NCBI GenBank assembly: GCA_949288485.1
Contig: CASEKC010000004.1
Coordinates: 1-64,000 of the forward strand
Reading direction: 5' to 3'
Length of the DNA: 64,000 nt
Source: an uncultured bacterium
Lineage (GTDB): Bacteria > Bacillota_I > Bacilli_A > RFN20 > CAG-826
A model generated the notes under the pieces. The model did no database searches. It was given only the letters and a program-made list of their open reading frames with translations, and was not told where the DNA came from. Shown here one piece after another: positions 9,947 to 30,332 of this stretch. The translations under genes were made by a program, and so were the position numbers. The number at the start of each line of letters is the position of its first letter. Positions within the stretch are counted from its first letter, which is position 1.

Positions 9947-9948
9947 AC

Positions 9949-10881
9949 TTAATAAATGACTCTCTTTTTAGAAACAATAAATTGTAAACCAGTAAATAAA
10001 AGAATAATTAAAAATAAAATAACAGCAGCTGCGCAAGCATAATTTATATTTCTTCCACCAGTTTGAATTTGATCATAAATAAAATAAACAGCAGTATAAA
10101 GATTATATTCTAAAGGAGAAGTTCCTCTAGCATTGAATAATCCAGCTATAGCTTGATATTCTTTAAATCCATCAATAAATGAAGTAATTGAAATATATAA
10201 AATTTGAGGTGAAAGTAAAGGAACGGTTATTTTACTAAATTTTTTTATTGCAGGAGTTGAATCAATTCTTGCTGCTTCATAATATTGCTTATCTATATTT
10301 TGTAATCCGCCAATAAAAACTAAGATTTTAAAAGGCATTTCATACCAAACAAGTTCAATACATAAAACTATCATTGCATTTAAATAAGTCGTTTGTCCTC
10401 CTGCTCCTGGCATCCATGAAATATCTAAATCAAATATTTCATTAATTAAGCCATTTTGAGCAAATAAGACACCAAAAACCATACCGATTGCAATAATATT
10501 AGTTACATATGGAGTAAAAAATATTGTTTGGAAGAATTTTTGTAAAACTTTAATTGAATTTAAACAAACTGCAATAATTAAAGATAAAATAATTGAAATA
10601 GGAACAGTTATAAATGTAATTAAAAGAGTATTAGGTAGAGCATATTTTAAAAATGCTTCTACTTGTCCTTTTCCAGTCATATTAGAAGGAAAATCACTTA
10701 AACCTAAAATAACTCCATAATTATCAAAAGTAAAACCAGTATTTGCTCCGGTTGCATAAGTATAATCTTTTAAAAATGAAATATAAAAAGTATTAATAAT
10801 TGGGTATAAAGTAAAAACAACTATCAAAATGATAGCAGGCATTAAATATAACCATCCTTTATAATTGTTTTTACTTTCCAT
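9949..10881 (-). CDS. CUT1 ABC permease, MalF-type (A)
   Basis: 310 residues with about six membrane segments. The EAA motif reads YEAARIDSTPAIKKFSKITV near residues 200-220, the ATPase-docking loop of MalF/UgpA-type permeases. An expanded periplasm-type loop as in E. coli MalF is absent, as expected in a single-membrane organism. It lies 16 bases after the ATPase gene and is directly followed by its MalG-type partner. Confidence 0.9.
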   Translation of the reverse strand: MESKNNYKGWLYLMPAIILIVVFTLYPIINTFYISFLKDYTYATGANTGFTFDNYGVILGLSDFPSNMTGKGQVEAFLKYALPNTLLITFITVPISIILSLIIAVCLNSIKVLQKFFQTIFFTPYVTNIIAIGMVFGVLFAQNGLINEIFDLDISWMPGAGGQTTYLNAMIVLCIELVWYEMPFKILVFIGGLQNIDKQYYEAARIDSTPAIKKFSKITVPLLSPQILYISITSFIDGFKEYQAIAGLFNARGTSPLEYNLYTAVYFIYDQIQTGGRNINYACAAAVILFLIILLFTGLQFIVSKKRVIY

Positions 10882-10897
10882 AATTAACTACTTTTAT

Positions 10898-12376
10898 TTA
10901 CTTTATATCTATTCTTTCTTCACTATCTATATCAAAAACAAACATCTTGTTTGTTTTTATTTTAAATTGATATGTATCAATATTTATATTTAAATCACTA
11001 TCTACTACTATTTTAATATTTTCTCCAATAAAAGAATCATGTTCTAAAGTTAATGTTGTATCTTTCCCGTTTAATGTAATTTCTTTTGCTCTTAAAGATA
11101 TAGTATCCAAATTATTTTCATCTTTTTTTGATGAAACAAAAATAAATCCTTCAGGTCTAATTCCTACATAAACTTCTTTATTTATATATTTTTCATTTTT
11201 TAAAGAAGATATTTTTTCATTATCAACATAAATTCCATCTTCTTTAATTATTCCTTTAAATACATTAATTGGAGGTGTTCCTAAAAATTTAGCAACAAAT
11301 AAGTTAGAAGGATTTTTATATATTTCAATAGGTTTTCCTTCTTGCATTACTTTTCCATTATTCATAACAACAATCTCATCACATATTGACATTGCTTCTT
11401 CTTGATCATGCGTTACAAAAATTGTAGTAATTCCTGTTTCTTTTTGAATTCTTTTAATTTCTTCTCTAGTTTTTATTCTTAAACGAGCATCTAAATTTGA
11501 TAATGGTTCATCTAAAAGTAAAACACGAGGTTTTTTTACTAATGCTCTAGCAATAGCGACTCTTTGTTGTTGACCTCCAGATAATTCTTTAGGTTTTTTA
11601 TCTAATTGTTCTTCAATTTGAACGAGTCTAGCAACTTCTCTAACCATTAAATCTATTTCATCATTTACTAATTTTCTTCTTTGAATTATCTTTTCATCAT
11701 TTAAATTAGTAATATAAAAAGAATCATCTATTTTTAAGTTTCTTTTTAAATATTTATCTTTTATTTCTTTAATTTTTATATTATTTTCATTAATAATATT
11801 ATCAACTTTATTTTTTAATTCTTCTTTAGAAGAAACACAAAAAAGTTTATGATTAAAAAGTCTTTTTGCAAAAGAAGGTGAAATAATATATTTATCGATT
11901 ATAAAAACAATTGCTCTTTCTTTACTTATCTTATTATTTAAAGAAGAATCTTTGATAATATTAACTAATTCTTCGTAATTAGTTAATATTTCGTTTTCTT
12001 TAGTTAACATTTCGATTTTATATTCTTTTTTATATGAATCTATTTTTAAATTAGTTAATGGAAACGCAATATTTTTATATACATTCATATGAGGATATAA
12101 AGCATAGTTTTGAAAAACAAAACCAATACCTCTTTTTTCACTAGCTAAATTAGTAACATCTTCATTATCAAACCAAATTTCGCCATTACTTGGTTCTTTT
12201 AATCCAGCAATCATATATAAAGTAGTTGATTTTCCACATCCAGAAGGTCCTAAAAGACCAACAAGTTCATTATTTTTAATATGTATTGAGATATTATCAA
12301 CGGCTTTAGTATCGTCAATTCCTTTTTTAGCGTCACCTTTAAATATTTTAGATAAGTTTTTTATTACTATTTCCAT
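10898..12376 (-). CDS. CUT1 ABC ATPase with an insertion in the helical domain (A)
   Basis: 492 residues, MsmK/UgpC/MalK family, energising the adjacent permeases. Walker A is GPSGCGKS (43-50), Q-loop Gln at 89, signature LSGGQ at 265-269, Walker B LLLDEP near 287-292, and the TOBE-type C-terminal domain follows (GTPPINVFKG, YVGIRPEGF). In the usual family about 53 residues separate the Q-loop from the signature; here there are 176. The extra stretch of about 125 residues (roughly 110-243) is Lys/Asn/Ile-rich and probably helical; I recognise no domain in it. It lies where the NBD faces the permease. All catalytic motifs are intact, so the protein should be active. Spacing indicates an operon with the two permeases downstream. 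Confidence 0.88.
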   Translation of the reverse strand: MEIVIKNLSKIFKGDAKKGIDDTKAVDNISIHIKNNELVGLLGPSGCGKSTTLYMIAGLKEPSNGEIWFDNEDVTNLASEKRGIGFVFQNYALYPHMNVYKNIAFPLTNLKIDSYKKEYKIEMLTKENEILTNYEELVNIIKDSSLNNKISKERAIVFIIDKYIISPSFAKRLFNHKLFCVSSKEELKNKVDNIINENNIKIKEIKDKYLKRNLKIDDSFYITNLNDEKIIQRRKLVNDEIDLMVREVARLVQIEEQLDKKPKELSGGQQQRVAIARALVKKPRVLLLDEPLSNLDARLRIKTREEIKRIQKETGITTIFVTHDQEEAMSICDEIVVMNNGKVMQEGKPIEIYKNPSNLFVAKFLGTPPINVFKGIIKEDGIYVDNEKISSLKNEKYINKEVYVGIRPEGFIFVSSKKDENNLDTISLRAKEITLNGKDTTLTLEHDSFIGENIKIVVDSDLNINIDTYQFKIKTNKMFVFDIDSEERIDIK

Positions 12377-12467: not shown

Positions 12468-13904
12468 TTAAACTTCTATATATCCAATAGTTTTTAAAGT
12501 TTCTTTAACAACATCTCTTGCTAAAATATTAGTTTCAATTATTTCTTCAGCTAATGAAGAAGTATTTTTATAGGCTACATAATCAATTGTTGCTAAATAA
12601 AATTTTCCTTTATATGAGGTAGGAGGATTACTTCTAACAACATTTTCTTGTCCATTTAAAAACATGTTATACATTGAAGGATCAAATTTCATTAAACATA
12701 AAGTATTTTCAAAAGGATATATTTTAATTAAATCTCCATAAGTAAATTCACCCTTTACGATATCACTTCTTATTCCTCCACTATTAATACTTCCGCTATC
12801 ACAAGGAATATTAATATTTTCATTATTAGTAGCATAATTCATTAAAGAATAAGAAATAAATCTAGCAAATCTTCCTTTTGAAACATTACTTTCAAAAGTA
12901 TATAAAACTTCATCTCTTATAGATTCTATTTCTTCTTTATATTTATCATATACTTCATCAACTAATGTTGATGAAGTGGAAAATAAAGAGTCTTTATTTT
13001 CCCAAGTAGAAATATTATTAAAAGATGAAGAAATAATTTCATATTCATTATTACTATTAAGTTTTAAATCTAATGAAATATTCGAAAGATAACTTCCATA
13101 ATTTTTTCCTTCAATATATGGAACTTTTTTATTAGTTTCATCTAAATAACCACTTTTTAAGTTATGATCATGTCCTAAAAATAATGCATCGATATAATCT
13201 ACTAATTCTAAATATCTTTCATATTCTCCATCATGAGTTGATAAAATTACGATTTCACATTTTTCTTCATTTCTTAAATAAGTAGCTTCTTCTTTAATTA
13301 ATTCAATCGATTCATCATAAATAAAATCATCAGCAATAGTTGCTAAAATATCTTCTTCAATTCCTGGCATAATTGAACCAATTATTCCGACATTAATCCC
13401 TTCTTTATTAATAACTGTTGAAGAAGATAAATAATAAGGTCTTTTGTTAGTAGAAGCATGAAAAACATTAATACCTAAAAGAGGAAAATCCATTTTAGAA
13501 GCCATTTCTTCTAATTTTTCTTCTCCCCAATCAAATTCATGATTACCAATAGTCATTGAATCAAACCCGATTTGATTCATCGTTTCAATAACGACTTCTC
13601 CATAAGTAATATTGCTTTCAGCTCCACCTTGAAACATATCTCCACTAGAAATAATAAAAGTATTATCAAAATTATTATTTTTTTCATTTATTAAATAATT
13701 ACCAATTCTTGATAAACCTACTTGTTTATAATCTTCATCATAAAGATATGCCCCATGAAAATCATTTAAAGCATAAAAATTTAAAGTTCTTTCTTCTATC
13801 CTTTCACCTAGCTCATCATAAGATACTTTATTTTGACAAGATGCAATTGTAATTAATGATAAAAATGTTACAAAAATATAAGATAATCCTTTTTTAAGTT
13901 TCAT
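12468..13904 (-). CDS. Surface 5'-nucleotidase lipoprotein
   Basis: 478 residues. The lipobox IASC gives Cys23. The N-terminal calcineurin-like metallophosphatase has its metal ligands in order: NDFHG (47-51), SGDMFQGG (87-94), GNHEFDWG (120-127), LSTHDGE and LGHDHN. The C-terminal 5_nucleotid_C domain has NSGGIRSDIVKG and FTYGDLIKIYPFENTL, which bind the nucleotide base. The family (UshA/YfkN-like) removes phosphate from nucleotides and cyclic nucleotides outside the membrane. In this locus it would follow the upstream thermonuclease in turning DNA/RNA fragments into nucleosides. A terminator precedes it, so it probably starts a second transcript that continues into transporter A, 91 bases downstream. 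Confidence 0.9.
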   Translation of the reverse strand: MKLKKGLSYIFVTFLSLITIASCQNKVSYDELGERIEERTLNFYALNDFHGAYLYDEDYKQVGLSRIGNYLINEKNNNFDNTFIISSGDMFQGGAESNITYGEVVIETMNQIGFDSMTIGNHEFDWGEEKLEEMASKMDFPLLGINVFHASTNKRPYYLSSSTVINKEGINVGIIGSIMPGIEEDILATIADDFIYDESIELIKEEATYLRNEEKCEIVILSTHDGEYERYLELVDYIDALFLGHDHNLKSGYLDETNKKVPYIEGKNYGSYLSNISLDLKLNSNNEYEIISSSFNNISTWENKDSLFSTSSTLVDEVYDKYKEEIESIRDEVLYTFESNVSKGRFARFISYSLMNYATNNENINIPCDSGSINSGGIRSDIVKGEFTYGDLIKIYPFENTLCLMKFDPSMYNMFLNGQENVVRSNPPTSYKGKFYLATIDYVAYKNTSSLAEEIIETNILARDVVKETLKTIGYIEV

Positions 13905-14034: not shown

Positions 14035-16224
14035 TTATTCAGCTAATCTAACATTGTCACAAACGATTTGGATATTTCCGTTGTAATCACTTCTAACACA
14101 TGTGAAGGTAATCTTATCACCAACTTTTAAGTCTTTAGTAACTTCATTTGTTAACCAATCTTTTGGATTTCCAATTGAATATTTACCACTACCATTATAG
14201 TTATATGAAATTTTACCATCTTGTGCTGTTGCACCATAAACTGCTACTTCAAGACCACTTTCATCAGTAACAACCATATCACCATATTCAGTAGCGCCAG
14301 GTTTATTAGTTGCCCATGATTTAATTGTAGCTGTGACCTCATAGATATATTGACCAGAAGCAGTTGCACTTGTTGCAGATAATGGAGCACCTTCAACAAC
14401 TTCTTTTAATGTTGCTTTTGTTGGAGCAATTCTTGTATCGTTTGTAGCTGCTAAAACACCAACGATTTCTTTTGTATCTTTATAATCTGATCTAATTGCG
14501 ACCATTGAAATTGTATCGCCAACTTTTAAATCTTTAGTATTTGCGTGAGTATTAGCATCTTTTGGATTACTGAATTTATATTCACCAGTTGCTTCATCAT
14601 AACTTAAAGCTGTATAAGTAGCACTGATTCCATATACAAGAATTTCTTTAGTTGCATCTTCTTCGTCAACTAAAATGATATTTCCGAATTGATCGATTGC
14701 TGTTTGATCACCTTTACTACCAAATCCTTTAATCTTACCTCTAACGACATAAGCTTGTTCTTTAGTATTTTGAGCTTCTAAAACTTCAGCAACTGAAGCA
14801 TGGAGATAATCTGGTTCACCTTGTCTAACTGAAGCAGTTAAAGTAATAACACCAATAGCACCTGATTCTGTTGAAGCACTAATTGTAACAGTTCCTTCAC
14901 TAACACCAGTAACTAAACCATTTTCATCAACTGTAGCGACTGAAGAATCTGAAGTAGCCCATGTAATTGTTTCACCTTCTAAAGAAGCAGTGAGTTGTAA
15001 ACTACTTCCAACAAATAAGTTACCTGTATAAGTAATATCGATACTTGTTGCTTCTTGATATGGTTCATCAACAACTTCGATTAAGCTTGAATCGACTAAC
15101 ATTAAAGCTGCACCATCAGTAGTTTTCATGTCATTATTGTCACCTTCCCAAACTACTTCTTTATTCATAGCTTGCATACCAGTGATATTGACAGTTTTTT
15201 CACCATTTGAATCTAAAGCTTCTTTTAAAACATCGTAAGCAGCTTTTTTAGCTTCCATATTGCTATTGTATCTATCAGCATAGAAGAACATTTCAGCACC
15301 TTTATATTCTAAAGTTGCGACTACATAATCACCTTCAGTAACTTTACCATCAAAATGATTATCAACTAATTCGACGCTTGTAACTTTAGCGCCTTCAACT
15401 CTAGACATAGTTCCATATGTTGCTTGGGAAATAAATCCTGGGTGACCTAAAACACTGAATTCAGCTGGAGCAACGCTACTTGCATCTTCTCCACTTAAAA
15501 TAGTAATTTGTGCATCACTACCTTTAATTTGTTTTGTTCCATTGTATGGTGAAGAAGTACCACTAACTTCAACGATATCACCAACTTTTAATCCACTTGG
15601 AACTTTATTCTTTTTAATATTATAAATCATGAATCCATGATTACCGGATTGAACAAGAATTCCATACCATTGATCATCGTCACCATCGATAAATCCAACG
15701 ACTTCACCTCTAACAGCGACTAAACCGCTATTTGGAATATCTTCAATTGCAATAAGATTTTTATTATTATCGAATGTTAATGTATATGTTAATGAAGCGC
15801 TAGCGTCATTTAATGTAGCTGTAGCTGTTAATTTTACAGTACTAGTTGTTCCAAAATCTCCCCAAACAGGTCTTAATTCTAAGTGTGTTGAGCCATTAGA
15901 AGAAACTGTTTCTTCTTCTAAAGTCCCTTGAGCATAGTCCCAATCAATTGCAACATCATAAGTATTACCACTATCTGATAAATAACTATAAGATGTTTGA
16001 GCAATAAGGTAACTTGCAGCCTTTTGTTCGAGTTTGTTGGTGACTCCGTATGAATCATCTCTAATTGGAGCAGCTTTATTATCTGTAATAACTGCGGAAG
16101 AATTTAAAACAGCTTTAACGATATCTTCATCTGTCATTGTTTCGTTAGCTGGTTTATCTCCACATGAAGCAAGAACTGCACCTGCACTTAAAACTAAAGC
16201 GAGTAATAATTTAGTTTTTTTCAT
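14035..16224 (-). CDS. Surface lipoprotein with OB-fold repeats and an Ig-like domain
   Basis: 729 residues. The signal peptide has lipobox LASC (Cys21) and a GGAGG ribosome-binding site. From about 163 there is an OB-fold-like segment (VRGEVVGF, LKVGDIVEVSGTSSPY, IKG) of the kind found in YhcR-type nucleases. Residues 390-470 form a bacterial Ig-like (BIG_2) domain (TITWATSDSSVATVDENG). Two further OB-like units at about 483-590 and 610-729 are clear internal repeats of each other: both have a VYG strand, NPKD, TKDLKVGD and RSDY in the same order. No catalytic nuclease motif is seen, so a role in binding nucleic acid or polysaccharide at the surface is inferred. It starts 16 bases after the thermonuclease gene. 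Confidence 0.75.
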   Translation of the reverse strand: MKKTKLLLALVLSAGAVLASCGDKPANETMTDEDIVKAVLNSSAVITDNKAAPIRDDSYGVTNKLEQKAASYLIAQTSYSYLSDSGNTYDVAIDWDYAQGTLEEETVSSNGSTHLELRPVWGDFGTTSTVKLTATATLNDASASLTYTLTFDNNKNLIAIEDIPNSGLVAVRGEVVGFIDGDDDQWYGILVQSGNHGFMIYNIKKNKVPSGLKVGDIVEVSGTSSPYNGTKQIKGSDAQITILSGEDASSVAPAEFSVLGHPGFISQATYGTMSRVEGAKVTSVELVDNHFDGKVTEGDYVVATLEYKGAEMFFYADRYNSNMEAKKAAYDVLKEALDSNGEKTVNITGMQAMNKEVVWEGDNNDMKTTDGAALMLVDSSLIEVVDEPYQEATSIDITYTGNLFVGSSLQLTASLEGETITWATSDSSVATVDENGLVTGVSEGTVTISASTESGAIGVITLTASVRQGEPDYLHASVAEVLEAQNTKEQAYVVRGKIKGFGSKGDQTAIDQFGNIILVDEEDATKEILVYGISATYTALSYDEATGEYKFSNPKDANTHANTKDLKVGDTISMVAIRSDYKDTKEIVGVLAATNDTRIAPTKATLKEVVEGAPLSATSATASGQYIYEVTATIKSWATNKPGATEYGDMVVTDESGLEVAVYGATAQDGKISYNYNGSGKYSIGNPKDWLTNEVTKDLKVGDKITFTCVRSDYNGNIQIVCDNVRLAE

Positions 16225-16240: not shown

Positions 16241-17650
16241 CTAATTAATATGTTCGCTTATATAATTTTTATATTCACTTGCTTTAAAGAATGGGAATTC
16301 AATTTGGTAAGATACTTCTTCACTGTCATTATATTGGAAAATTCCTAATAAAACGTTAACATCATAAGATTTTCCTCTTTCAAAAACAGTTCTTATTGTA
16401 GATTCTGAAGAGAAGAAATTATGACCTTCACAACGAATATTTAATTCAATTCCATTACAAGTAGCATGAATTGTGAAAGTTGAACTATCGGTTTGAGATT
16501 GATAGACAAAATCTTCGCTATCTTCAATCGTAATTGTTGTCCTAACTAAATTTCCAGCATAAGGTTCAAAAGAATCTGTACTTGTAATTAAACTTGGATC
16601 CATATAAACAGGATCAACATTATAAACATAGCCTAATTCTTCAGCTTCTTCTTTAGTTGTTGCTAAAATTTCAAATGGATAGTGATCATTATTAAGTTTG
16701 ACATCGGTTAATTGTAAATTACCATAATATTTTGTAATTTTTGCATAAAAACGGACAATATCTCCGACTTTAACACCAGAACTCTTGTATTGAGTAAATG
16801 CAAAAATCGAGGCAGGAACAACATCTTCATCGCTAGGATTGACATCTCTAACATAGAAATCACTGCCACTAATAGCTATAACTTGACCAATAATTCTTAA
16901 TTGTTTACCACTATTACCCGTTGAATCATTAACACCAAGTGTATCAAAATTTTCTTTGGCATTAGAAATAGTTGTTTCAACAACTTCTCCACTGGAATCA
17001 AAATCACAATCTTTTTCCCCATTAACTCTTCTTCCTTTAGCAGCTTCTTGAGCTTCTTGGAAAGCTTCATAATAGCCATCTAAAATTTGTGAATTTTGAT
17101 TTAATAAATTAAGAGAATAACCTTGTTCAACAATTTCAAGATTTAATAATCTAAAATCAGCACCATCATTTGGTTGATACCAAACAAATCCCATATATCT
17201 TCCGCCACTAGAATCGTATTTTTCAAATAAATCTAAATCATTTACAACTACAATTCTAGAAGCATTTGTTAATTTTGATTTTGTAAAATGGGAAGCTTTT
17301 AATCCCCATTCTTGAATCGCACCAGTGGATTCTGGAGTATCAATACCTTCATATCTAAAACGGAATCTTGAAGTAGCAGTTTCATCGTTTAAAGGATAAA
17401 AATTTGAAGTATCTCCATCTGTATTGGAAGCTAAACTAACTTCCATAATTGCTAAACCACTTGTTGCGCTTAAAAAATTATTATTTGGAATACTACCTTC
17501 GTTTGCAAACTTAAAAGAATCAGTTATAGGTGTTTCATATTCAATATTTTCACCACAAACATCCTCATTTTGCTTCTCGCCGCAGGCGGCGAGAGCAAAA
17601 GATACAAATAAAACAGAAATAATATTTTTAAATAATTTTTTTATTTTCAT
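16241..17650 (-). CDS. Surface thermonuclease lipoprotein with OB-fold
   Basis: 469 residues; lipobox LAAC with Cys23. Residues 70-185 are a staphylococcal-nuclease domain with the catalytic set conserved: Asp80 (TDGDT), Arg99, Asp104, Thr105 and Glu107 (RYEGIDTPES), and Arg151 (GGRYMGF). The expected reaction is Ca-dependent cleavage of DNA and RNA outside the cell. Residues 250-330 look like an OB-fold (LRIIGQVIAISGSDFYVRD, VKVGDIVRFYAKI) and 350-460 like another beta domain, an arrangement resembling YhcR-type nucleases. No Shine-Dalgarno is seen before the ATG, only an A/T-rich leader. It follows binding protein B by 37 bases and precedes the OB/Ig lipoprotein, so nuclease, binder and transporter are probably co-transcribed. 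Confidence 0.85.
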   Translation of the reverse strand: MKIKKLFKNIISVLFVSFALAACGEKQNEDVCGENIEYETPITDSFKFANEGSIPNNNFLSATSGLAIMEVSLASNTDGDTSNFYPLNDETATSRFRFRYEGIDTPESTGAIQEWGLKASHFTKSKLTNASRIVVVNDLDLFEKYDSSGGRYMGFVWYQPNDGADFRLLNLEIVEQGYSLNLLNQNSQILDGYYEAFQEAQEAAKGRRVNGEKDCDFDSSGEVVETTISNAKENFDTLGVNDSTGNSGKQLRIIGQVIAISGSDFYVRDVNPSDEDVVPASIFAFTQYKSSGVKVGDIVRFYAKITKYYGNLQLTDVKLNNDHYPFEILATTKEEAEELGYVYNVDPVYMDPSLITSTDSFEPYAGNLVRTTITIEDSEDFVYQSQTDSSTFTIHATCNGIELNIRCEGHNFFSSESTIRTVFERGKSYDVNVLLGIFQYNDSEEVSYQIEFPFFKASEYKNYISEHIN

Positions 17651-17687: not shown

Positions 17688-19202
17688 TTAAGCCGGAATA
17701 TTATTTGGATTTAATTGATAGTAGCTATCAAGTAAATCGAACCAGAAATCATCACTTGCTGCTTGTTCTTCTGTAGCATCACCACATGCAGCCATAATTC
17801 CTGAGACGTTACTTCTAATTGAGGATGAACCAACGAAACCTGGGTCAACATATTGAGTCCAACCATCTCCACCTTGATAGACTTCGAAGTTTAATTTGAC
17901 TGCGTCTCTCATAGTTTTTGATGTACCAGTTAATGATTCATCATTTAAGTAATCTTGATAAACAGTTGATTCATAAGCATCTGTTGTAACTGGGATATAA
18001 CCAGTGTTTTTAGCAAATGTAGCGTTAACTTCTGGATCATATGTTAATGTTTTTAATAAATCAAATGCTTGAGCTCTATTTTCAGCATCTGTATTTTTAA
18101 ACATAACTAAGTTAGTTCCTTGAGAAATAACATATTTTGCTTCAGGTTTATCAGCATTATATGGTAATGGGTTAATTTCAACTTCGATACCATCTTGGAC
18201 ACAGTTACTAACACCAGCGGATGAACCAATTGTGAAAATTGTTTTATAAGCCTTGAATGGTGTAGATGTATAACTTGATTCACCGAATGTTGATGGAATA
18301 CCGATTAATCCTTCTCTAAATAATCTATTGAAGAATTTGAGCATATCAACAGTTTCTTGGCTCTTATATTGCATAAATCCTTGAGTTTTGCCATTAGCAA
18401 GTGTTTCAACTGTGGTATATGTTCCACCCCATTGTCTAACCATTGTAATAAAGAAGTTAGCTTGAGAGTCATATGAACAAACTCTGAAATCATTTTCACC
18501 AACGTTTGTTAAGTCAATTGCAACATCTTGTCCAGCTTCACCAGCAGCGACAGCATTTTCATAAACGACACCGTCAGCACCAATAACTTTATTAAATGCA
18601 GAAGTTTCTTTTAAAACTTTTAAAGCAGCTAAACCGAATGTTTCCATTTCTTGCCATGTTGTAGGAACACCTGTAATTTTGTCTTCACCTGTTTTATTTT
18701 CGGTCATTTTAATTAAAACATTAATAAATGTTCTATTTGTTGTTAAAACTTCTGTAGATTTATTAAATGGTAAACCCATGACGTGATCTGGGACAATTTC
18801 TAAGTTTTCTTGTAAGTAGTTAGGATAGAATTTATTTAAATCCATTCCTTGTTCTTCGATTGTTGTTGTTAAATCAAATAAAATACCTGATTCTTGATAT
18901 TGAGCCATATGATCAGGATAAGCAACAGCTAATTGTGGATAAGTTCTTGTTGAGACTGAACCAACAATAGCAGCAAGTAAGTTATCATAACCACCTTGAC
19001 CTGTGTGGACAACTTCCCATCCCTCATCAAGTCCAGCCTCGTAATCATCTAAAATGTTGACTAATTGAGTAGTCATTGATTCACCGAAACCAGTCCAAAT
19101 GTTGATTGTTTTGTTTCCAACTGTTGTATTTTGATTACAACTTGTTAAAGCAAATAAACCGATAACTGGGACTGCAGCTAACAATTTAATTTTTTTGTTC
19201 AT
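17688..19202 (-). CDS. ABC transporter solute-binding lipoprotein B
   Basis: 504 residues, family 1 extracellular binding protein; lipobox ALTSC with Cys22; strong AAGGAGG. The mature part starts with INIWTGFGES and has PQLAVAYPDHMAQY and LPFNKSTEVLTTN, matching the same places in binding protein A (ITFWTNF, PSLAVCYPDY, MPFARTSEVMYYN). The two are therefore distant paralogues. It lacks the EF-hand-like loop. Last of four genes in transporter B (ATPase, MalF-type, MalG-type, binding protein), followed by the thermonuclease lipoprotein. The ligand is unknown; CUT1 proteins normally bind oligosaccharides or glycerol-phosphate compounds, so nucleotide-derived ligands would be new. Confidence 0.88.
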   Translation of the reverse strand: MNKKIKLLAAVPVIGLFALTSCNQNTTVGNKTINIWTGFGESMTTQLVNILDDYEAGLDEGWEVVHTGQGGYDNLLAAIVGSVSTRTYPQLAVAYPDHMAQYQESGILFDLTTTIEEQGMDLNKFYPNYLQENLEIVPDHVMGLPFNKSTEVLTTNRTFINVLIKMTENKTGEDKITGVPTTWQEMETFGLAALKVLKETSAFNKVIGADGVVYENAVAAGEAGQDVAIDLTNVGENDFRVCSYDSQANFFITMVRQWGGTYTTVETLANGKTQGFMQYKSQETVDMLKFFNRLFREGLIGIPSTFGESSYTSTPFKAYKTIFTIGSSAGVSNCVQDGIEVEINPLPYNADKPEAKYVISQGTNLVMFKNTDAENRAQAFDLLKTLTYDPEVNATFAKNTGYIPVTTDAYESTVYQDYLNDESLTGTSKTMRDAVKLNFEVYQGGDGWTQYVDPGFVGSSSIRSNVSGIMAACGDATEEQAASDDFWFDLLDSYYQLNPNNIPA

Positions 19203-19260: not shown

Positions 19261-20310
19261 TTAGCCCTTAATTCCACTTCTTGAAACACCTCTCATAATA
19301 TATTTATGGAAGAATATAAAGAGGATAAAGAGTGGGAGCGTAACAACAACGGAACCAGCCATTTTACCTGGTTGGTTATCACTAAATTCTGAAGAGAATG
19401 AAGCCATTAATCCGTTTGAAACTAATCTAATATCATAGTTATCACCGAAAATTACAGAATGTTGAATTCTTCCGTTAGCGACGAGTTGAGGCCAAACATA
19501 AGCATTCCATCCACCCATCAATGAAAGAATAATAATCGTAACAATTGTAGGCATACCAATAGGAATCATAACTTTTAAAAGATATTTCCAATCTGTATAA
19601 CCATCAACCTTAGCAGCTAAATATAATTCGTTTGGAATTTGTTGGAAAGTTTGTCTTAAATAGAAAATATAGAAGACACTAACACCATGTACTAATATCA
19701 AAGCTGCGAAAGTATTTTCCCAGTTAAATTCTTTAACTAACGCATAGTTTGTAATAACCATCATTTCGCCAGGAATCATCATTGTTGCTAAGATAACTAA
19801 GAATAAAGCGTTTTTTCCTTTGAAATTTAATCTAGCAAAAGCAAATGCAGCTAAAACCGAAGTAATAACTGTAACAAGCATTCCACCTGCAGCACTAATA
19901 AAGGTATTTAAGAAATAAATCCAGAAGGATGTTTTTTCTTGTACAATTCCTAAGTTATCAACATATGTAGGAGCAAAGACTGAAACATAGTTTTCAAATG
20001 TAAAAGGAATTGGCAAAAGTGTAATTGTATTATTACTCTTATTCATTTCAAATGTAGTTTGAGAAATGAATGAAGTTGAAATCATGAAAAGGAATGGTAA
20101 AAGAATAAAAATCGCAAAGATAATTAAGAAAATATACATTAAAGATTGGGAAACAATCATTTTTGGTAAGTAACTTTTACCGATAGTATATTCCCCATCT
20201 TTTTTATGATTTCTATGTTCAAGACGATACTTTTCACTATCAGCTAACTTTTGATTTCCTGATTCTAAATAAGCTTGTAATTCTTGTTCACTCTTAATAG
20301 CGTTTCTCAT
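19261..20310 (-). CDS. CUT1 ABC permease, MalG-type (B)
   Basis: 349 residues with a roughly 50-residue charged N-terminal tail before the first of about six membrane helices. The EAA loop is LAAKVDGYTDWKYLLKVM and the C-terminus FHKYIMRGVSRSGIKG closely matches permease A (FRKYIMRGVGRAGIKG). AGGAGG precedes the ATG. It lies 14 bases after the MalF-type gene. It is the docking subunit for ATPase B. Confidence 0.9.
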   Translation of the reverse strand: MRNAIKSEQELQAYLESGNQKLADSEKYRLEHRNHKKDGEYTIGKSYLPKMIVSQSLMYIFLIIFAIFILLPFLFMISTSFISQTTFEMNKSNNTITLLPIPFTFENYVSVFAPTYVDNLGIVQEKTSFWIYFLNTFISAAGGMLVTVITSVLAAFAFARLNFKGKNALFLVILATMMIPGEMMVITNYALVKEFNWENTFAALILVHGVSVFYIFYLRQTFQQIPNELYLAAKVDGYTDWKYLLKVMIPIGMPTIVTIIILSLMGGWNAYVWPQLVANGRIQHSVIFGDNYDIRLVSNGLMASFSSEFSDNQPGKMAGSVVVTLPLFILFIFFHKYIMRGVSRSGIKG

Positions 20311-20324: not shown

Positions 20325-21557
20325 TTAATAGTGGACTCTCTTCTTACTAACAGCAAATTGAATAGCTGTAATCAAAAGAATGATAATTAAAAGAACGATA
20401 CTTCCTGCAGCAGCATAACCTGGATTTAATGGATTTATCTGTTTCATATCACGGTATAAGTAACCGACGACTGTAATCCATTCAACACCTTGATATCCAC
20501 CGAAGAAATAGTTATTTTGTGAAATGTAAATCGATCTAACATCGGTATACATTTTAAATGCGCCAATAAATGATGTAATTGTAATATAAAGAATTTGAGG
20601 TGAAAGTAATGGGACAGTAATTTTTCTGAAAATTTTTGCACCACTAGCACCATCAATTCTAGCAGCGTCATAATATTGTTTATCGATTGTAGATAATCCA
20701 GAAAGGAATACTAAAATTTTAAAGGCCATTTGATTCCAAACTGAATAAGTAACAATAACAACACCTTGAGCCCATCTTGGAGCACCTTCTGTAACCCATT
20801 GTTGATTTAATCCAAAAATTGTATTGAATAAACCACCGCCAACTGCGCCATTTGTATAACTTGTAAAGATAAGGTTGAAAACCATACCTAAAGCGATTGT
20901 GTTAGTAACATATGGTAAAAAGAAAACGGTTTGGAAGAATCCCTTTAAAAACTTAATTCTATGAATAAAATAAGCAATTAAAAGAGAAACTAAAATAGTT
21001 AAAGGTACTTCTAAAATAACAAGTTCAAAAGTATTCCATAAACTCTTGATAAATAATGAGGTAGGAATATTTTGACCGAATAAATTAATTGAATAACTAG
21101 TATTACTAAAAAGGTATGTGAAATTTCCAAAACCAAAACTTGTTGGATAAGGAGCTTCAGTACAAACAATCCCACTTCCTCCAACAGCACTCATATCTTC
21201 ACAAATTGTTGAGTTTCCTTTAATAATATTAGCGATTGAGAATGATCCTGCACCATCAACCCATGTAAAATCTTCAGTAAAAGCAATAATAAAGCTGTTT
21301 AAAATTGGGTAAATCATGAATAAACAGATTAAAATGAAAGCAGGAATCAAAACCAAGAAAGCTAAAAGATTTTGATTCATATGGAACAATCTTTTTTTAG
21401 CTTCTAATGGTCTATTTATATTAAATTTACAAGTTCCATCAGCATTATAATAATAAGATTCTTCATGACCTCTATGTCTTAATCTTAAATAGAAGTTATA
21501 GAAAGACTCTTTTACTTTGCTAAAGAAACTATTTTTCTTACTCGCATTATTTTCCAT
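20325..21557 (-). CDS. CUT1 ABC permease, MalF-type (B)
   Basis: 410 residues from the ATG at 21557; an in-frame TTG at 21569 would add four residues. An unusually long cytoplasmic N-terminus (about 55 residues) precedes about six membrane helices, and the loop after helix 1 is longer than in permease A and contains two cysteines (STICEDMSAVGGSGIVCTE) that could form a disulfide. The EAA loop reads YDAARIDGASGAKIFRKITV. The gene starts 15 bases after the stop of ATPase B. Confidence 0.88.
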   Translation of the reverse strand: MENNASKKNSFFSKVKESFYNFYLRLRHRGHEESYYYNADGTCKFNINRPLEAKKRLFHMNQNLLAFLVLIPAFILICLFMIYPILNSFIIAFTEDFTWVDGAGSFSIANIIKGNSTICEDMSAVGGSGIVCTEAPYPTSFGFGNFTYLFSNTSYSINLFGQNIPTSLFIKSLWNTFELVILEVPLTILVSLLIAYFIHRIKFLKGFFQTVFFLPYVTNTIALGMVFNLIFTSYTNGAVGGGLFNTIFGLNQQWVTEGAPRWAQGVVIVTYSVWNQMAFKILVFLSGLSTIDKQYYDAARIDGASGAKIFRKITVPLLSPQILYITITSFIGAFKMYTDVRSIYISQNNYFFGGYQGVEWITVVGYLYRDMKQINPLNPGYAAAGSIVLLIIILLITAIQFAVSKKRVHY

Positions 21558-21572
21558 AAAAATTACCAAGAA

Positions 21573-23477: not shown

Positions 23478-24635
23478 TCATAAATTTTTATCACTTTTAT
23501 TGTGTGATGAAACTCTTTCATTAACTTGATTTAAGAGTTTTTCTTCGGTTTCTCTATTTAAAAACCATACACTATTTTTAGTATCAATTACTCTTGTAAC
23601 TGAAATTAAATCAGCTAAAGAAGTATGATGTTTACTAAAAATAATTAATAAATAATCAATTAAATAAAATAAACCTAAGGTAAAATACCCAATAAAAGCC
23701 TCAATAGAAATAAATAAATATTTAACAAAAATTTGTATTTTTTTAATCTGATATTCTTCCTTATTAACAAGTCCTAACTTCATCATTCTCATCGATAAAG
23801 TTTCACCGTTTTTTGATAATAAAGGGATAAAAATAAAATATATTAATAAAGCAATTGTTAAAGAAATATAAAAAACATATCTTCCAATTCTTTCTAATTC
23901 AACATAAATTTCATGATATCTATCAGTTTCTCTTAAATAAAAACAAGCTTGATGATAACTTCCTGGATAAGCTTCTGTATCTGCAAAAATTCTTAAATAT
24001 GCTCTTATATAAGCTTGATTTTCATTAGCACTAAATTCTTTACTACTATCTTTTTTATAAGTTACACCATTATAAATAACTTCATCATATATACCAATAT
24101 TAGAAGAAATTACTTCTCCTTTATCATTAAAAGATAAAGGAGAAGAATATTTATCATTATTTATAATATAAAAAGCTTTAAAATTAGGATATTCTTCATT
24201 ATCTATATTGCAAACATTTTTATAAAACCACTCATTTAATTCCCTTTCACTTGGTTTTGTATCAAAAATAACATCATAAGAAGAAATTTCATCTAAATAA
24301 TTAAAGTAAAAATTATAAAGCATAGTTAAAAAAATCATATGAGAATCATATGTAAAATAACCATTTTCATCAGTTAATTTTTCTGCTGAAATATAATTTA
24401 CTTCACTTAATGGTTCTTCATCGATTTTTGAATCATCAAAAAATAAACCACTATCAACTTGTATTTCTTTTACTTCTTTTAATTTTTGAGGAATATGAAA
24501 ACCATAATCAACATATCCTTCTACTGTTGGTAAATAGGTAGGAATAATTAGAATAATAATGAATAATAAATCTAATATGTATCCAAAAGTTCTTTTCCCT
24601 AAAGAACCATAATGAATTGAACTAATCTTCTCCAT
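23478..24635 (-). CDS. RDD-family membrane protein 1
   Basis: 385 residues. The first helix (about 17-36) carries the RDD signature in KRTFGYILDLLFIIILI (Arg and Asp in the expected places). About 210 residues, acidic and Tyr-rich, follow before helix 2 (about 252-272). After helix 2 comes the conserved LLSKNGETLSMRMMKLGLV, then one or two more helices and SLADLISVTRVID. A normal RDD protein has only a short loop between helices 1 and 2. By topology the insertion should be outside the cell. It overlaps the previous gene by 14 bases. RDD proteins are poorly characterised; ion or metabolite transport has been proposed for some. Confidence 0.75.
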   Translation of the reverse strand: MEKISSIHYGSLGKRTFGYILDLLFIIILIIPTYLPTVEGYVDYGFHIPQKLKEVKEIQVDSGLFFDDSKIDEEPLSEVNYISAEKLTDENGYFTYDSHMIFLTMLYNFYFNYLDEISSYDVIFDTKPSERELNEWFYKNVCNIDNEEYPNFKAFYIINNDKYSSPLSFNDKGEVISSNIGIYDEVIYNGVTYKKDSSKEFSANENQAYIRAYLRIFADTEAYPGSYHQACFYLRETDRYHEIYVELERIGRYVFYISLTIALLIYFIFIPLLSKNGETLSMRMMKLGLVNKEEYQIKKIQIFVKYLFISIEAFIGYFTLGLFYLIDYLLIIFSKHHTSLADLISVTRVIDTKNSVWFLNRETEEKLLNQVNERVSSHNKSDKNL

Positions 24636-25614
24636 TTACTTTATCTGCCTCTAATTCATCAAAACTATTATAAATAACTGATTCTTTTTTATTTGCCGCT
24701 CTTGTAAAAGATAAAAAATCTAATAAAGAAGCATATTCTCTATTCATTAAAGTAGCTAACCAGTTAAAAAGGAAATAAGCTCCATAAATTGGTGCTAAAA
24801 TAAAGATATTATCTTCAAAAAGCATCACAATAAGTAAAATTATCATTGGAATATTTCTAATTAGGAAAAAATATTTTTTCTGATAAAGTCCATCTTTTGA
24901 AACAAGTGCAACTTTTGTTAAAAATCTACCTAAAGTAAAACCATATTTGTTTGTTATAGGCGGAATAACAAAAACTAAAATATAAGGAATAAATGCAGAA
25001 AAGAAAATACGATAAACTCCTTTTTGAACGATTTCTTCTCTTGCAAGTTGATAAAATTCATCATTATAAAGATCACTGAATATTTCACGATAATGTCTGG
25101 AATAGAATGTTAATAAATCAGCTTTAGCATCATCTGTTAAATCTTTTGAAGGATCTTCATCTTCGTAAAATTCCCTTTTAATAATTCCCAATTTAGTTTC
25201 ATCTATTTTCCCATTTTCATCATATTGATACTCAAAATAAGTATAATCAGTGCCTAATTCTAAAATTCTTTCATTATAATCTTCAATTGTATAATGAGTT
25301 CTTGTTCCACCATTTTCCTTATAAAAAGAGGAACCAAAATAAGTATCGGTTAAATAATAATTTTCAACTACTTCTTGATATTTTGTATAGTCATTAGAAT
25401 TAATTTGGTTGTAATAACCATTTTTATCTTTAACTAATAAGCCAGAATATACTTGGGCTTGAGCAACAATTTGATCTGCAATATAAGAATCAAAAATATA
25501 TCTAAAAACAAATGTTGAACAAATAAAAAACAAAACTCCAAAAACAATGAAATCAATACATATTCCTAAAAATCTTAATGACATTTTTGGATAAACTATT
25601 CTTTTATTTTCCAT
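24622..25614 (-). CDS. RDD-family membrane protein 2
   Basis: 330 residues. Helix 1 (about 12-36) has LRFLGICIDFIVFGVL, with the Arg and Asp of the RDD motif. A 165-residue hydrophilic insertion rich in Tyr, Asp and Glu separates it from helix 2 (about 203-222). Then NKYGFTLGRFLTKVALVSKDG matches the RDD segment after helix 2, and SLLDFLSFTRAA matches the end. The last 14 bases overlap the start of RDD 1, indicating coupled translation. Confidence 0.75.
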   Translation of the reverse strand: MENKRIVYPKMSLRFLGICIDFIVFGVLFFICSTFVFRYIFDSYIADQIVAQAQVYSGLLVKDKNGYYNQINSNDYTKYQEVVENYYLTDTYFGSSFYKENGGTRTHYTIEDYNERILELGTDYTYFEYQYDENGKIDETKLGIIKREFYEDEDPSKDLTDDAKADLLTFYSRHYREIFSDLYNDEFYQLAREEIVQKGVYRIFFSAFIPYILVFVIPPITNKYGFTLGRFLTKVALVSKDGLYQKKYFFLIRNIPMIILLIVMLFEDNIFILAPIYGAYFLFNWLATLMNREYASLLDFLSFTRAANKKESVIYNSFDELEADKVNGED

Positions 25615-25689
25615 TTCTTTAAAATATTTCCTTCAAAAATTTTCAAGTATTATAACTTTATCAAAAAATAGACTTAATTAATATAAAAA

Positions 25690-26754
25690 TTAACTTAAAG
25701 TATCTTCTTTTACTAAATTAGTTTTGCTAATACTTTCTAAAAAACCTCTTCTAGTTTTATTAGTATAAATAAAGATTATATTAGCAATCAAAAATAAGAC
25801 TCCGATAAGTGGAATAATATATAGAGCTAAATATGATGAATAAAGAGTAAAACTTATTTTAAATAAAGGTATAAAAAATATAACTGGTAAACATTCGATT
25901 GTTTTAATCAAAAATATATAAATTACTTCAATTCTTTTTATATATGAGCCATCTTTTTCTTTAATTCTTTCTAATTTTAAAGTTACTTCGCCAAAACTTT
26001 CATGTTTTTTAGAAAAAAGTGGGTAAATTAAGAATAATAATAATGTGGTTGAAAAAAAGGAGATTAAAGAGCAATAAAAATAATTATCATTAATTAATTT
26101 GTCGTTAAAATTTATCTTATTTCTTAAGTTTAAGTATGTAGTTTCGTTTTTAATTGAGACTAAATCGTTAACTTTTATATCTTCTAATATTTTTTGATAA
26201 AGATTAACAAAAGAAATACTCAAATCTCCATAATCTTCATATCCTTTTATATTCATTTCTTGATCTAAAAATAAAAGATTAAATTCATCAATATATTCTT
26301 TTTTTAAAGAAACACTTCCATTGATTAAATAAATATCTTTTTCAAAAAATGGTGATAAATATTCTATTTTTAAATTATTTAAAAACGAAATATCTTCGTT
26401 TTTAATATCAATATAATAATTATAAAAAACATCATATTTGCTAGATTCTTCATCATTTTTTACTAAAAACTCAACAAAATGATAAAAAGTATCACTTATA
26501 GCATCGTTAAAAGTATATTTATCACTATCTTCATCTTCATCATAAAAAAGAAGTTCGTGTTCATATAATAAATCAAAAATTCCTTTTTCAATTTGTTGAT
26601 TTTCCTCTATAAAATTATCATAAGAAATAATTGGTCTAGAAATTTGAAATATAACAACATTAAAAAGGAGAATAGATATAATAAATGTTAAAGCAAAATC
26701 TAATAAATAAGCCAGTATTCTATCTTTCGTTTTTAAAACGCTTATATTTTCCAT
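25690..26754 (-). CDS. RDD-family membrane protein 3
   Basis: 354 residues. Helix 1 begins with DRILAYLLDFALTFIIS, carrying the RDD Arg and Asp. The inserted region runs to about 222 and is acidic, with several EDEDSD-type stretches. Helix 2 (about 226-244) is followed by FSKKHESFGEVTLKLERIKEKDG, a weaker form of the RDD segment, and the C-terminus has FLESISKTNLV. Gaps of 92 and 75 bases separate it from its neighbours, with nothing recognisable in them. Confidence 0.7.
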   Translation of the reverse strand: MENISVLKTKDRILAYLLDFALTFIISILLFNVVIFQISRPIISYDNFIEENQQIEKGIFDLLYEHELLFYDEDEDSDKYTFNDAISDTFYHFVEFLVKNDEESSKYDVFYNYYIDIKNEDISFLNNLKIEYLSPFFEKDIYLINGSVSLKKEYIDEFNLLFLDQEMNIKGYEDYGDLSISFVNLYQKILEDIKVNDLVSIKNETTYLNLRNKINFNDKLINDNYFYCSLISFFSTTLLLFLIYPLFSKKHESFGEVTLKLERIKEKDGSYIKRIEVIYIFLIKTIECLPVIFFIPLFKISFTLYSSYLALYIIPLIGVLFLIANIIFIYTNKTRRGFLESISKTNLVKEDTLS

Positions 26755-26846
26755 TTTTAATGCTCCCTCAATTTCTAAAATAAATTATCACACTTAAATT
26801 AAAACTTAAAATTAATTTTTCTTTAAAATTCTAATAAATTACATTT

Positions 26847-27812
26847 TTATTTATTTTCTTTTTTCTTTTTATCAAAAAAATATTCTTCATAATTTAAATA
26901 AAACTTTTTATTTTCATTAGATAAACTATAAGTTTTTGACATATATTCGTTAAAATTTTGGTGAGAAGAAGAAAAAATCATCATGCCAACACTCACAATT
27001 AAAGGAACGAAAAAAGTTAATAAAGAAAGTAAGAATTCGAAAAAGAAAAACCACAAAAATTTAAGTATCAACTCTTTTATAGATAATGAAAAACCATAAA
27101 CATTCAATGTTCCAAATCTAAATATAAGTTTTCCAATTGTTTTGTTCCCTCTTCTTATAAATAAAGGTATAAGAAAATAAAATAATAAAACACTAAAAAA
27201 TAAGGAAATTAATAATAAAATCAACTGAATCATAAAAATATTATTCGTCTCTTTTCGATAAAGGTCATTTTGGAGCAAATAGCCAATTGCATTTTCATTA
27301 ATAATATAAATGTAAAAAGAAGCGAATTCTTTATCCAAAACATCTTCTTTTTCTTTTATTAAACTAGTAGATTCATCCAAATAAAAACAGTTACTGCCAT
27401 ATTTTATTTTTAAATCATTTAATAAATTAATTCCGAAATTTTCTTTATCACTATAACAATTTAAAGAAATATAAAAATGATTAACTCGTTTTTCTAAGTC
27501 CTCTTTTTTTTCTAAATCAGAAAATGTTTTATTATTTTCATAAAAATCACTAACTAAAACATATTCATTGTTATTTCGAATATATAAATTTGATTCATTT
27601 ATAATTTCATTAATTGAAATCAAACTAGTTTTATATAATGAAGTGTTTGTATAAATAAATATACTAGACAAAGTCAAAATAAATGTTAGAAAAACAGTTA
27701 AAAAAATATCGATTAATCCTGCAAAAAATCTTTTATATAAAGGCACAGAATCATATTCGAGTTCAATTAGATTGCTATTTTTTGTTGTTTCATTTCTTAT
27801 ATTATTTTTCAT
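26847..27812 (-). CDS. RDD-family membrane protein 4
   Basis: 321 residues. The N-terminal 25 residues are hydrophilic, then YKRFFAGLIDIFLTVFLTF forms helix 1 with the RDD motif. The inserted loop is shorter, about 140 residues. Helix 2 (about 193-216) is followed by FIRRGNKTIGKLIFRFGTL, matching the G-T-G-K pattern of RDD proteins, two further hydrophobic segments, and a Lys-rich C-terminal tail. Confidence 0.7.
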   Translation of the reverse strand: MKNNIRNETTKNSNLIELEYDSVPLYKRFFAGLIDIFLTVFLTFILTLSSIFIYTNTSLYKTSLISINEIINESNLYIRNNNEYVLVSDFYENNKTFSDLEKKEDLEKRVNHFYISLNCYSDKENFGINLLNDLKIKYGSNCFYLDESTSLIKEKEDVLDKEFASFYIYIINENAIGYLLQNDLYRKETNNIFMIQLILLLISLFFSVLLFYFLIPLFIRRGNKTIGKLIFRFGTLNVYGFSLSIKELILKFLWFFFFEFLLSLLTFFVPLIVSVGMMIFSSSHQNFNEYMSKTYSLSNENKKFYLNYEEYFFDKKKKENK

Positions 27813-27849
27813 CGTTGCTATTTTATTAAATTATTAAAAATATATAAAT

Positions 27850-29013
27850 CTATTTATTTTCAACATAAATATCTTCAAATTTGATTATTTCATTAGCCCC
27901 TAAATTTATCAAAGAATAATGTTTTTTATTTAAAAGTGGTAAAAACATATTTATTAATAAAAGCGAAAAAGAAAATATCGAAACATTAAAAATATTTATA
28001 AAACCAATAAATATCATATTTAAATAGGAAAAATAAAAGAAAAATATAAAAATTATTAAAGAAAATAAAAAAGTTAAATAAAGAAGAATAAATTTAGCAG
28101 TGTAATTATAGATATTTAAATTTAAGAATGTTTTTTTATTTACTCCAACTAGTTTAAACATTTTCATCATTAAGGTTTGATCTTTTTTAAATATAAAAAT
28201 AGGTATTAAAAAATAAATAAAAAAAGCTAAAGAATAAGAAATAATTAACTCAACATTTAAATAAAAATAATAATCATTATTTAGTTTTTGAAAATTAGAA
28301 AATTCATTTTTATATAATTTATCGTTAGTTTCGAAATCTTTAATTAATTCATTGTAAAATAATGAATAATTATCTAAATATTCGTTATAAAACAATGTGA
28401 ATTCGTTAGAATAATCTTCTTCAAAAATATATTTTGTTAGTTCTAAGGCAACTTCCTCTTTTAAAATAAAACGATTATTTTCAAGATAATTATTTTGATA
28501 ATAAGTAAAAAAATATTTATTAAATAAATCATTTATAAATAAATTATTTATTTCTTTATCTTGTTCGATATTTTTTAATCGATATGAAAATAGATAATAA
28601 TTTATGTTTTCCTCATTAAAATCATCAAAAACTTCATATTCTTTATATATATTTCCTTTAAACTCGTAACCTATGTCAACTAAATAGGTTTTTAAACTCC
28701 TTCTAACCTCTTTATAAATAGTATCTTCAAAAGAAACTAAATTATTATTTTCAATTTCTAAAAGAGAAGAAGAATTAGAAATATTATATAAATTACTTCT
28801 ACTTTCATTAATTTCTTCTATTTTTGAACTTATAGGAGGTAATAAATATCCAATTTGGTTTGTTATAACTCCTTGAATAAGAGAAAAAAGTATAAAAAAT
28901 AAGGCAAAATCTAGAAGAAAAACTAAAAACCTCTTTTTCATAGAGGCTTTTTCATTTAAAGAATAATTTGAATAATTATTTTTATGATTATTTATTAAAA
29001 AAATATGCTTCAT
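27850..29013 (-). CDS. RDD-family membrane protein 5
   Basis: 387 residues and the first of the five in transcription order, 20 bases after the SIR2-like gene. Helix 1 is in MKKRFLVFLLDFALFFILFS. The insertion spans about 200 residues and is very Asn/Tyr/Glu-rich. After helix 2 comes FIFKKDQTLMMKMFKLVGV, which fits the RDD segment, and the C-terminal part is strongly hydrophobic with about three helices, ending KKHYSLINLGANEI. Apart from these positions the five proteins hardly resemble each other, so the family has diverged a long time or under diversifying pressure. Confidence 0.7.
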   Translation of the reverse strand: MKHIFLINNHKNNYSNYSLNEKASMKKRFLVFLLDFALFFILFSLIQGVITNQIGYLLPPISSKIEEINESRSNLYNISNSSSLLEIENNNLVSFEDTIYKEVRRSLKTYLVDIGYEFKGNIYKEYEVFDDFNEENINYYLFSYRLKNIEQDKEINNLFINDLFNKYFFTYYQNNYLENNRFILKEEVALELTKYIFEEDYSNEFTLFYNEYLDNYSLFYNELIKDFETNDKLYKNEFSNFQKLNNDYYFYLNVELIISYSLAFFIYFLIPIFIFKKDQTLMMKMFKLVGVNKKTFLNLNIYNYTAKFILLYLTFLFSLIIFIFFFYFSYLNMIFIGFINIFNVSIFSFSLLLINMFLPLLNKKHYSLINLGANEIIKFEDIYVENK

Positions 29014-29033
29014 TTATTTATAAATCAAATTTA

Positions 29034-30332
29034 TTAATCAATCTTACTTAACCATTCACCAATTTCTTTATAATCATCAACCCATATGGTAATTAAATCA
29101 TATGAAAAGAAATAATTAGTAACATCTCTAAATGTTTTTTCATCAAATCCTTCTTCTTTTTTCATAAATATAAAATTGAATTTTAGAAAATTAGATGCTA
29201 ACTCTAATAATCTTTTCATGTTTGGATCAGTTAAAGAAATACCAATAAATAAAGATGTTTTAAACATAAAATCATGTAATTGTTTAGCAATATTCCATGA
29301 ATATGGATTGTTATAAAGATAGAAATATTCAGATTCATTAAAAATTAATGAATCTGTAAATTTTTCTTCATTATATTTATCAAAAGGTAGTAAACCATGA
29401 ACATGATAAATATCTACTTTAGCATCTTTATTTAAAAAAGCATTGTCATCATAAACAGTATTATATAAAATACCTCTTCTTTTTAAGATATATTCTAAAT
29501 TTGTATCGTAATTATATGTAATAACAGTTGTTTTATGGTGATTATTAATAAAATTAGTTAATTCATATAATGTTGAAGAAGGATCATCAAAATCAATATT
29601 ATCTTTAAATAAATATAATTCTTTATTTAATTCTTTATAGGTATCAAAACCATTAGTTTTTAATATTTTTGAAGATACAAATAATTCTTTACCAACATAA
29701 TGCGATATCTCTTCCATCCTTTCTTCATTACCTTCATAAAATGTTGAATTAAGTGCTGAAATTAAATGTTTCCAATCTTTTGCACCATAATTTACATTCA
29801 TTCCAGCACCTAAAATTAAATCGATATCAAGTCGATATGTAAAAAGTTTTAAAAGATAAAGAATAAATGATTCTTCATTATTTTCTTGTCTATCTAAATT
29901 TAAAAGATATAAAAGTTCATCTTTAAATAACGATTCATCATTCTTTTTAAGTGTATATCTAATCTTTTTACCTTCAATATAACCAACTGCTAAAAAATTA
30001 TCTTCATCAAAATAAATATTTAAAGAAGAGATAGGAATATAAGGATCAAAATTTTTTAAAGATTTAATTTTAAAGAAATTGATATTTCCCATAATGTCAA
30101 TTTCTTCTAAATTAACTTTAAAAATAGAAGAATATATATGAACTACATATTTATGGATATGATCATGAGAAGAATAAACAACTACTTTAAAATTACATTT
30201 TGGATCAAAATGAAATCCAAAAGATCTAAAAATAATATTTTTATAACTAACTCCATTTAAATAATATAAATAGATTAAAATAAGTAAACATTTTTTATTA
30301 AATATATAGTTTTCTCTATCTTTTTTTCTCAT
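29034..30332 (-). CDS. SIR2-like domain protein, possible NADase
   Basis: 432 residues. The C-terminal 265 residues are a SIR2-like fold: LILGAGMNVNYG (172-183, NAD-binding GAG motif), VITYNYDTNLEYI (270-282), the catalytic-type His in HVHGLLP (310-316), and LFIGISLTDPNMKRLL (361-376). These are features of the SIR2 proteins that act as NAD hydrolases in several anti-phage systems rather than of classic deacetylases: no zinc-binding cysteine quartet is seen. The N-terminal 165 residues are a mixed alpha/beta region I do not recognise. AAAGGTG precedes the ATG. It heads a run of five RDD membrane genes on the same strand and may be transcribed with them. Enzyme activity and defence role are inference. 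Confidence 0.75.
   Translation of the reverse strand: MRKKDRENYIFNKKCLLILIYLYYLNGVSYKNIIFRSFGFHFDPKCNFKVVVYSSHDHIHKYVVHIYSSIFKVNLEEIDIMGNINFFKIKSLKNFDPYIPISSLNIYFDEDNFLAVGYIEGKKIRYTLKKNDESLFKDELLYLLNLDRQENNEESFILYLLKLFTYRLDIDLILGAGMNVNYGAKDWKHLISALNSTFYEGNEERMEEISHYVGKELFVSSKILKTNGFDTYKELNKELYLFKDNIDFDDPSSTLYELTNFINNHHKTTVITYNYDTNLEYILKRRGILYNTVYDDNAFLNKDAKVDIYHVHGLLPFDKYNEEKFTDSLIFNESEYFYLYNNPYSWNIAKQLHDFMFKTSLFIGISLTDPNMKRLLELASNFLKFNFIFMKKEEGFDEKTFRDVTNYFFSYDLITIWVDDYKEIGEWLSKID

Follow-up and report, generated by a model that had tools for sequence, protein, structure and literature searches.

RDD proteins form a widespread membrane family without a settled function. Five RDD genes follow a SIR2-like gene at 23478-30332 of the window (the whole stretch of 64,000 nucleotides analysed here), which raises the question of what such a cluster does. 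The initial annotation saw a unit of six genes, with a putative NAD-consuming effector and an array of diversified outer domains, that would fit immunity or surface sensing. The positions of the open reading frames bear out its layout: the six genes lie on one strand, the gap after the SIR2-like gene is 20 bases and the last RDD pair overlaps by 14 bases. The unit itself did not hold. Directly 3' of 23478, on the same minus strand, are genes for a MalK-like ATPase, two permeases, a binding lipoprotein, a nuclease lipoprotein, a Big_2 protein and a 5'-nucleotidase (Table 1). Judged from gene order, the six genes make up only the first half of a longer predicted operon, and the island looks like equipment for scavenging nucleic acids.

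Table 1. Coordinates and profile matches of the genes in the SIR2-RDD-importer region of the window
Feature	Position	Strand	Remarks
SIR2-like protein, 432 aa	29034..30332	-	SIR2_2 2.8e-14; N-terminal domain 1-~140, SIR2 domain ~141-432
RDD protein type A2, 387 aa	27850..29013	-	PF06271 24.4 bits; insertion ~60-250
RDD protein type B, 321 aa	26847..27812	-	PF06271 44.4 bits; insertion ~56-182, alpha-helical ectodomain
RDD protein type A1, 354 aa	25690..26754	-	PF06271 26.9 bits
RDD protein type C1, 330 aa	24622..25614	-	PF06271 23.0 bits; also matched by class profile A3
RDD protein type C2, 385 aa	23478..24635	-	PF06271 49.4 bits
MalK-like ABC ATPase, 594 aa	21573..23357	-	ABC_tran 2e-36; zinc-ribbon-like and helical insertion in C-terminal regulatory part
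ABC permease 1	20325..21569	-	BPD_transp_1 4.2e-15
ABC permease 2	19261..20310	-	BPD_transp_1 2.4e-18
Solute-binding lipoprotein	17688..19202	-	SBP_bac_8 4.4e-21
Staphylococcal-nuclease-like (SNase) lipoprotein	16241..17650	-	SNase 1.5e-11
729-aa protein with Big_2 domain	14035..16224	-	Big_2 4e-10
5'-nucleotidase / NadN-like metallophosphoesterase	12468..13904	-	5_nucleotid_C 3.8e-8, Metallophos 6.8e-7
Second ABC importer, same type	7322..12376	-	ATPase 10898-12376, permeases 9949-10881 and 8987-9946, binding protein 7322-8830

Four of the five RDD proteins score above the curated PF06271 cut-off of 24.1 bits, and the type C1 protein (24622-25614), at 23.0 bits, falls 1.1 bits under it; the profile searches uphold the assignments made from the letters for the SIR2-like protein and four of the RDD proteins, with the fifth just short. 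The Arg...Asp of helix 1 is kept in all five, as had been claimed. The G-T segment after helix 2, said to be present in each, is degraded in 25690-26754 (KKHESFGE) and 27850-29013 (KKDQTLMM). Towards the C-terminal end, the third Asp of the RDD signature is present only in 24622-25614 and 23478-24635; its position is occupied by Glu in 26847-27812 and 25690-26754, and by Asn in 27850-29013. A recent analysis mentions a conserved intramembrane site of RDD proteins that faces the cytoplasm (PMC12419801). Searches of the PDB gave no credible sequence match to the RDD proteins. The AlphaFold2 model of the type B protein (pLDDT 91) places TM1 at residues 25-55 and TM2 at 183-218, with a helical ectodomain between them, and Foldseek returned no match to this model at E < 0.001. 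In a second structure comparison 137 of its residues aligned with 7t92_C, a subunit of the peroxisomal retro-translocon, at Z 10.4 and rmsd 2.7, a likeness that may reflect only the common arrangement of helical membrane proteins.

The insertions between helices 1 and 2 had been described as five unrelated domains. Profile comparison with hhalign resolves them into two related classes instead, A1/A2 (27850-29013 with 25690-26754, E 1.7e-4) and B/C1/C2 (26847-27812, 24622-25614 and 23478-24635, E about 1e-4 or better), and the reversed-sequence controls showed no relation. An SGL[YF] motif is common to the B/C1/C2 class. Between the window and the related genome G003 the insertions have diverged to nearly the same degree as the transmembrane parts (in two examples, 74% identity against 73-80% for the membrane part, and 84% against 87-96%), and with dN/dS values of 0.16-0.27 they are under purifying selection and not hypervariable.

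In related genomes, 61 RDD runs were chosen by RDD homology alone. In 51 runs an ABC ATPase or permease gene of the same strand lies no more than four genes away; the other ten have no ABC gene within this distance, and three of these ten are cut off by the end of the contig or locus. Chance adjacency of an RDD run and an ABC gene is about 5%, as estimated from the approximately 12 permease loci in a 1.36-Mb genome. The linkage is conserved in order as well as in proximity: RDD-A, RDD-B, in some cases a gene termed c10, ATPase, permease, permease, binding protein and SNase recur in this sequence in many genera, and in several families the operon often sits just after rpsL-rpsG-fusA-tuf, a stable chromosomal site. 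The window departs from this order in that its type A1 gene (25690-26754) is found without the usual type B partner; in other operons a B gene comes after A1, and in many cases c10 after that. Tandem RDD genes with long insertions, which the initial annotation regarded as exceptional, are common in this order, as the 61 sampled runs show (36 of two genes, eight of three and one of four), and the longest run found, of five, is in the window and G003.

In a search of 296 genomes from the class, long insertions were confined to RDD proteins of this order, and the RDD proteins found elsewhere are mostly single and about 150-310 aa long. Thirteen of 14 sampled loci without an RDD match, from other families of the class, carry ATPase-permease-permease-binding protein-SNase with no RDD gene, and six sampled loci of family f23 have a single RDD gene, encoding 252-281 aa, that lies before the ATPase gene, either next to it or separated from it by one small gene. 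The comparison suggests a series running from no RDD gene through one short gene and two to three long ones to the five seen in G003 and in the window genome. Another RDD gene of the window genome (G000, C1:279 kb) belongs to a GH2/GH43 sugar importer operon, and at another locus (L117) RDD genes are part of an importer operon with a pullulanase-like enzyme, so the RDD genes track the type of importer and not a nucleic-acid substrate. Full-text searches, with subscription journals and preprints outside their coverage, returned no paper on RDD-ABC importer operons and no description of SIR2 together with RDD and an ABC transporter.

The nuclease and the metabolism of the bacterium bear on the substrate. 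The ATPase, two permeases, binding protein and SNase form one minus-strand cluster from 23357 down to 16241. The SNase profile matches relatives across the class, and in many of its families the gene follows that of the binding protein. In 15 homologues D78, D80, T81, R99, E107 and R151 are invariant, along with the lipobox C23; from knowledge of the family we take the former residues to be the catalytic positions. With one marker for each pathway, the purH (purine) and pyrF (pyrimidine) families were absent from the 96%-complete genome in which control families were detected, and so the bacterium probably needs nucleotides from outside. Rfam had no match in the window, and thus no riboswitch points to a substrate.

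Mycoplasmas are described as carrying an SNase with an ABC transporter and binding lipoprotein (PMC3585158, PMC9740415), and import of nucleic-acid precursors is proposed for such operons, which are reported to be co-transcribed in M. agalactiae (PMC3585158). The window operon resembles the MAG_5030-MAG_5070, MHO_0730, Mpn133 and Mhp379 loci in that binding lipoprotein, SNase lipoprotein, ATPase and two permeases are clustered, and the mycoplasmas likewise need outside nucleotides (PMC3585158, PMC9740415); by this analogy we read it as scavenging nucleic acid. It differs in that one to five RDD genes precede the ATPase here and, in four genera, a SIR2-like gene precedes those; the passages that describe the mycoplasma loci mention neither.

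We propose, and consider it probable, that a CUT1-type ABC importer here scavenges nucleic-acid precursors together with a surface nuclease and nucleotidase, and that the RDD proteins serve it as accessory subunits in the membrane. The nuclease and nucleotidase would cut extracellular DNA or RNA, and the binding protein would pass the products to the permeases. The RDD proteins, usually as an A-B pair, would sit beside the permeases with their helical ectodomains outside, where they might dock secreted partners, or else gate or regulate the importer. Their physical association with the importer, its substrate and each of these steps are inferred from genomic evidence. Two RDD proteins, Mas1B and SppI, set a precedent for an accessory role next to other membrane proteins. 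Mas1B, an RDD protein of actinobacterial mce operons, shares the RDD-type helices, an external domain and an importer-like operon (PMC1810536), but that importer is of a different class, and in Mas1B the external domain comes after the RDD helices and does not separate helix 1 from helix 2. In Bacillus subtilis, SppI (YteJ) is the membrane partner and inhibitor of SppA (PMC7568657); its target is a protease, on which it acts by way of the C-terminal domain, and it has no importer partner. The recurrent position of RDD genes directly before CUT1 ABC importers in one order offers a concrete and testable role, that of accessory importer subunits, and the operon is a candidate architecture for uncultured, nucleotide-auxotrophic gut Bacilli feeding on extracellular nucleic acid.

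The SIR2-like gene has a history of its own. As first noted, the protein lacks zinc cysteines (there is no cysteine in the SIR2 domain) and has defence-type motifs: N274 (the Asn of TxNYD) and H312 (the His of HG) are invariant in 30 homologues, and the ThsA profile matches at 2.2e-9. Among the structures listed in the fold search, which matches to the SIR2 domain filled, its model (mean pLDDT 76, moderate) aligned over residues 141-432 with KomC, ThsA and DSR2 (Z 16-18.5), and in this model the domain does look like the NAD-hydrolysing SIR2 domains of defence systems. Of 279 genomes from the order, 33, belonging to four genera, encode the combination of this N-terminal domain and SIR2, each in one copy, and a class-wide search added only one distant partial match. 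As a separate gene the N-terminal domain was not found in the 279 genomes, two short frames being ambiguous; these frames of 172-174 aa (G358:C14:46347 and G394:C48:2443) are possibly broken genes or contig ends.

Linkage of SIR2 to RDD, which the initial annotation implied, is real and old when viewed from the SIR2 side: RDD genes lie near 24 of 34 SIR2 loci (immediately in 20), in several chromosomal contexts, and in most of the 24 they are an A-B pair. Orthologues of 27850-29013 come after SIR2 in other genomes. From the RDD side the linkage is rare: SIR2 stands beside only one of the 61 runs and is missing from the other 60, and SIR2 in turn is without neighbouring RDD at L074, L077-L080, L083, L084 and L097. 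Such separate occurrence is among the patterns that the initial annotation had named as refuting it. At L084 it lies directly before the importer, and at L085 it is divergent. The SIR2-like gene is therefore a long-standing but optional companion of the importer operon. In the SIR2 tree the genus forms one clade (100/99) with other families outside it, SIR2-RDD-A-RDD-B is the arrangement on many of the outer branches, in several cases immediately behind tuf, and dN/dS between the window and G003 is 0.06. Horizontal spread within the genus was considered and not seen. The family is lineage-specific and lies outside the usual defence setting. Within the proposed scheme the protein would be a cytosolic NAD-binding, probably NAD-cleaving enzyme encoded before the operon, and we conjecture that under certain conditions it modulates either the importer or the salvage of nucleotides.

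Five further explanations bear on these data. In the first, a defence module, the SIR2-like NADase would be an abortive-infection effector and the RDD proteins its membrane sensors. The SIR2 fold, the invariant catalytic-type Asn and His and the stable association with the A-B pair speak for it, and the protein shares with Thoeris ThsA and Kongming KomC the lack of a zinc module. It differs from both in its own N-terminal domain, not seen outside the family, in the absence of known partner genes, and in vertical inheritance within the genus among transporter neighbours. No TIR ThsB, KomA/B, HerA, STAND or Argonaute partner was found among the window neighbours scanned (most genes at 5059-42645), the RDD genes follow the importer, and a single genus clade with so low a dN/dS is unlike a typical mobile defence gene; we regard the idea as quite unlikely. 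Diversified surface antigens, whose insertions would vary to escape host or phage, agree with the external location predicted by topology and with the strong differences between paralogues. Since insertions and helices are conserved to a similar extent between orthologues (dN/dS of the insertions < 0.3 against G003) and the genes accompany an importer, the array of antigens or immune proteins was rejected, and we give it hardly any credence. Perhaps the RDD proteins of this lineage are true CUT1 subunits that confer a new capacity such as oligonucleotide uptake, and the SIR2 NADase guards this entry route and causes cell death once phage DNA or a phage protein exploits or obstructs it. This would place nutrition and immunity in one operon, and we think it improbable.

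A further possibility is that the operon imports carbohydrates and that the nuclease genes are separate passengers. The MalK-like ATPases, the SBP_bac_8 proteins and the presence of RDD genes, elsewhere in this genome, in importer operons that include glycosidases all point this way, and two of the same facts weigh on the nucleic-acid proposal, namely that RDD genes also occur in sugar importer operons and that CUT1 homology alone points to sugars; the ten runs with no nearby ABC gene count against it as well. Against a carbohydrate importer stand the nuclease behind the binding protein in so many families, the auxotrophy markers and the mycoplasma precedent, and we judge it unlikely. The SIR2-like protein could alternatively split imported or surplus pyridine nucleotides and feed a PncB-NadD-NadE route. 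Genes for NadE, a NadD-like nucleotidyltransferase and PncB lie at 32237-36187, just upstream of the SIR2 region, and likewise in G014, and the island contains the NadN-like nucleotidase. The full set, however, adjoins SIR2 in only these two sampled genomes, and the fold resembles NAD-depleting effectors, which leaves this a possible though doubtful explanation. It covers the SIR2 gene only and is compatible with the nucleic-acid importer; for the SIR2-like protein, salvage or regulation is favoured and guarding is less likely.

Several other features of these loci deserve mention. Two RDD-A/RDD-B pairs (L118 and L193, in G009 and G015) adjoin proteins of about 1020-1040 aa and one of 539-550 aa, with no importer; the 1021-aa protein of L118 had no Pfam match. 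The c10 protein (500-720 aa, no Pfam match) has a signal helix, about 350 aa outside and three C-terminal helices. It is absent from the window operon and is encoded between RDD-B and the ATPase in operons of the RDD-A1 type, as at L050:8584-10113 (G014) and in 12 further members of its cluster. The ATPases carry large insertions: in 21573-23357 there are sub-threshold zinc-ribbon matches at residues 277-300, and in 10898-12376 the insertion interrupts the ABC domain ahead of its signature motif.
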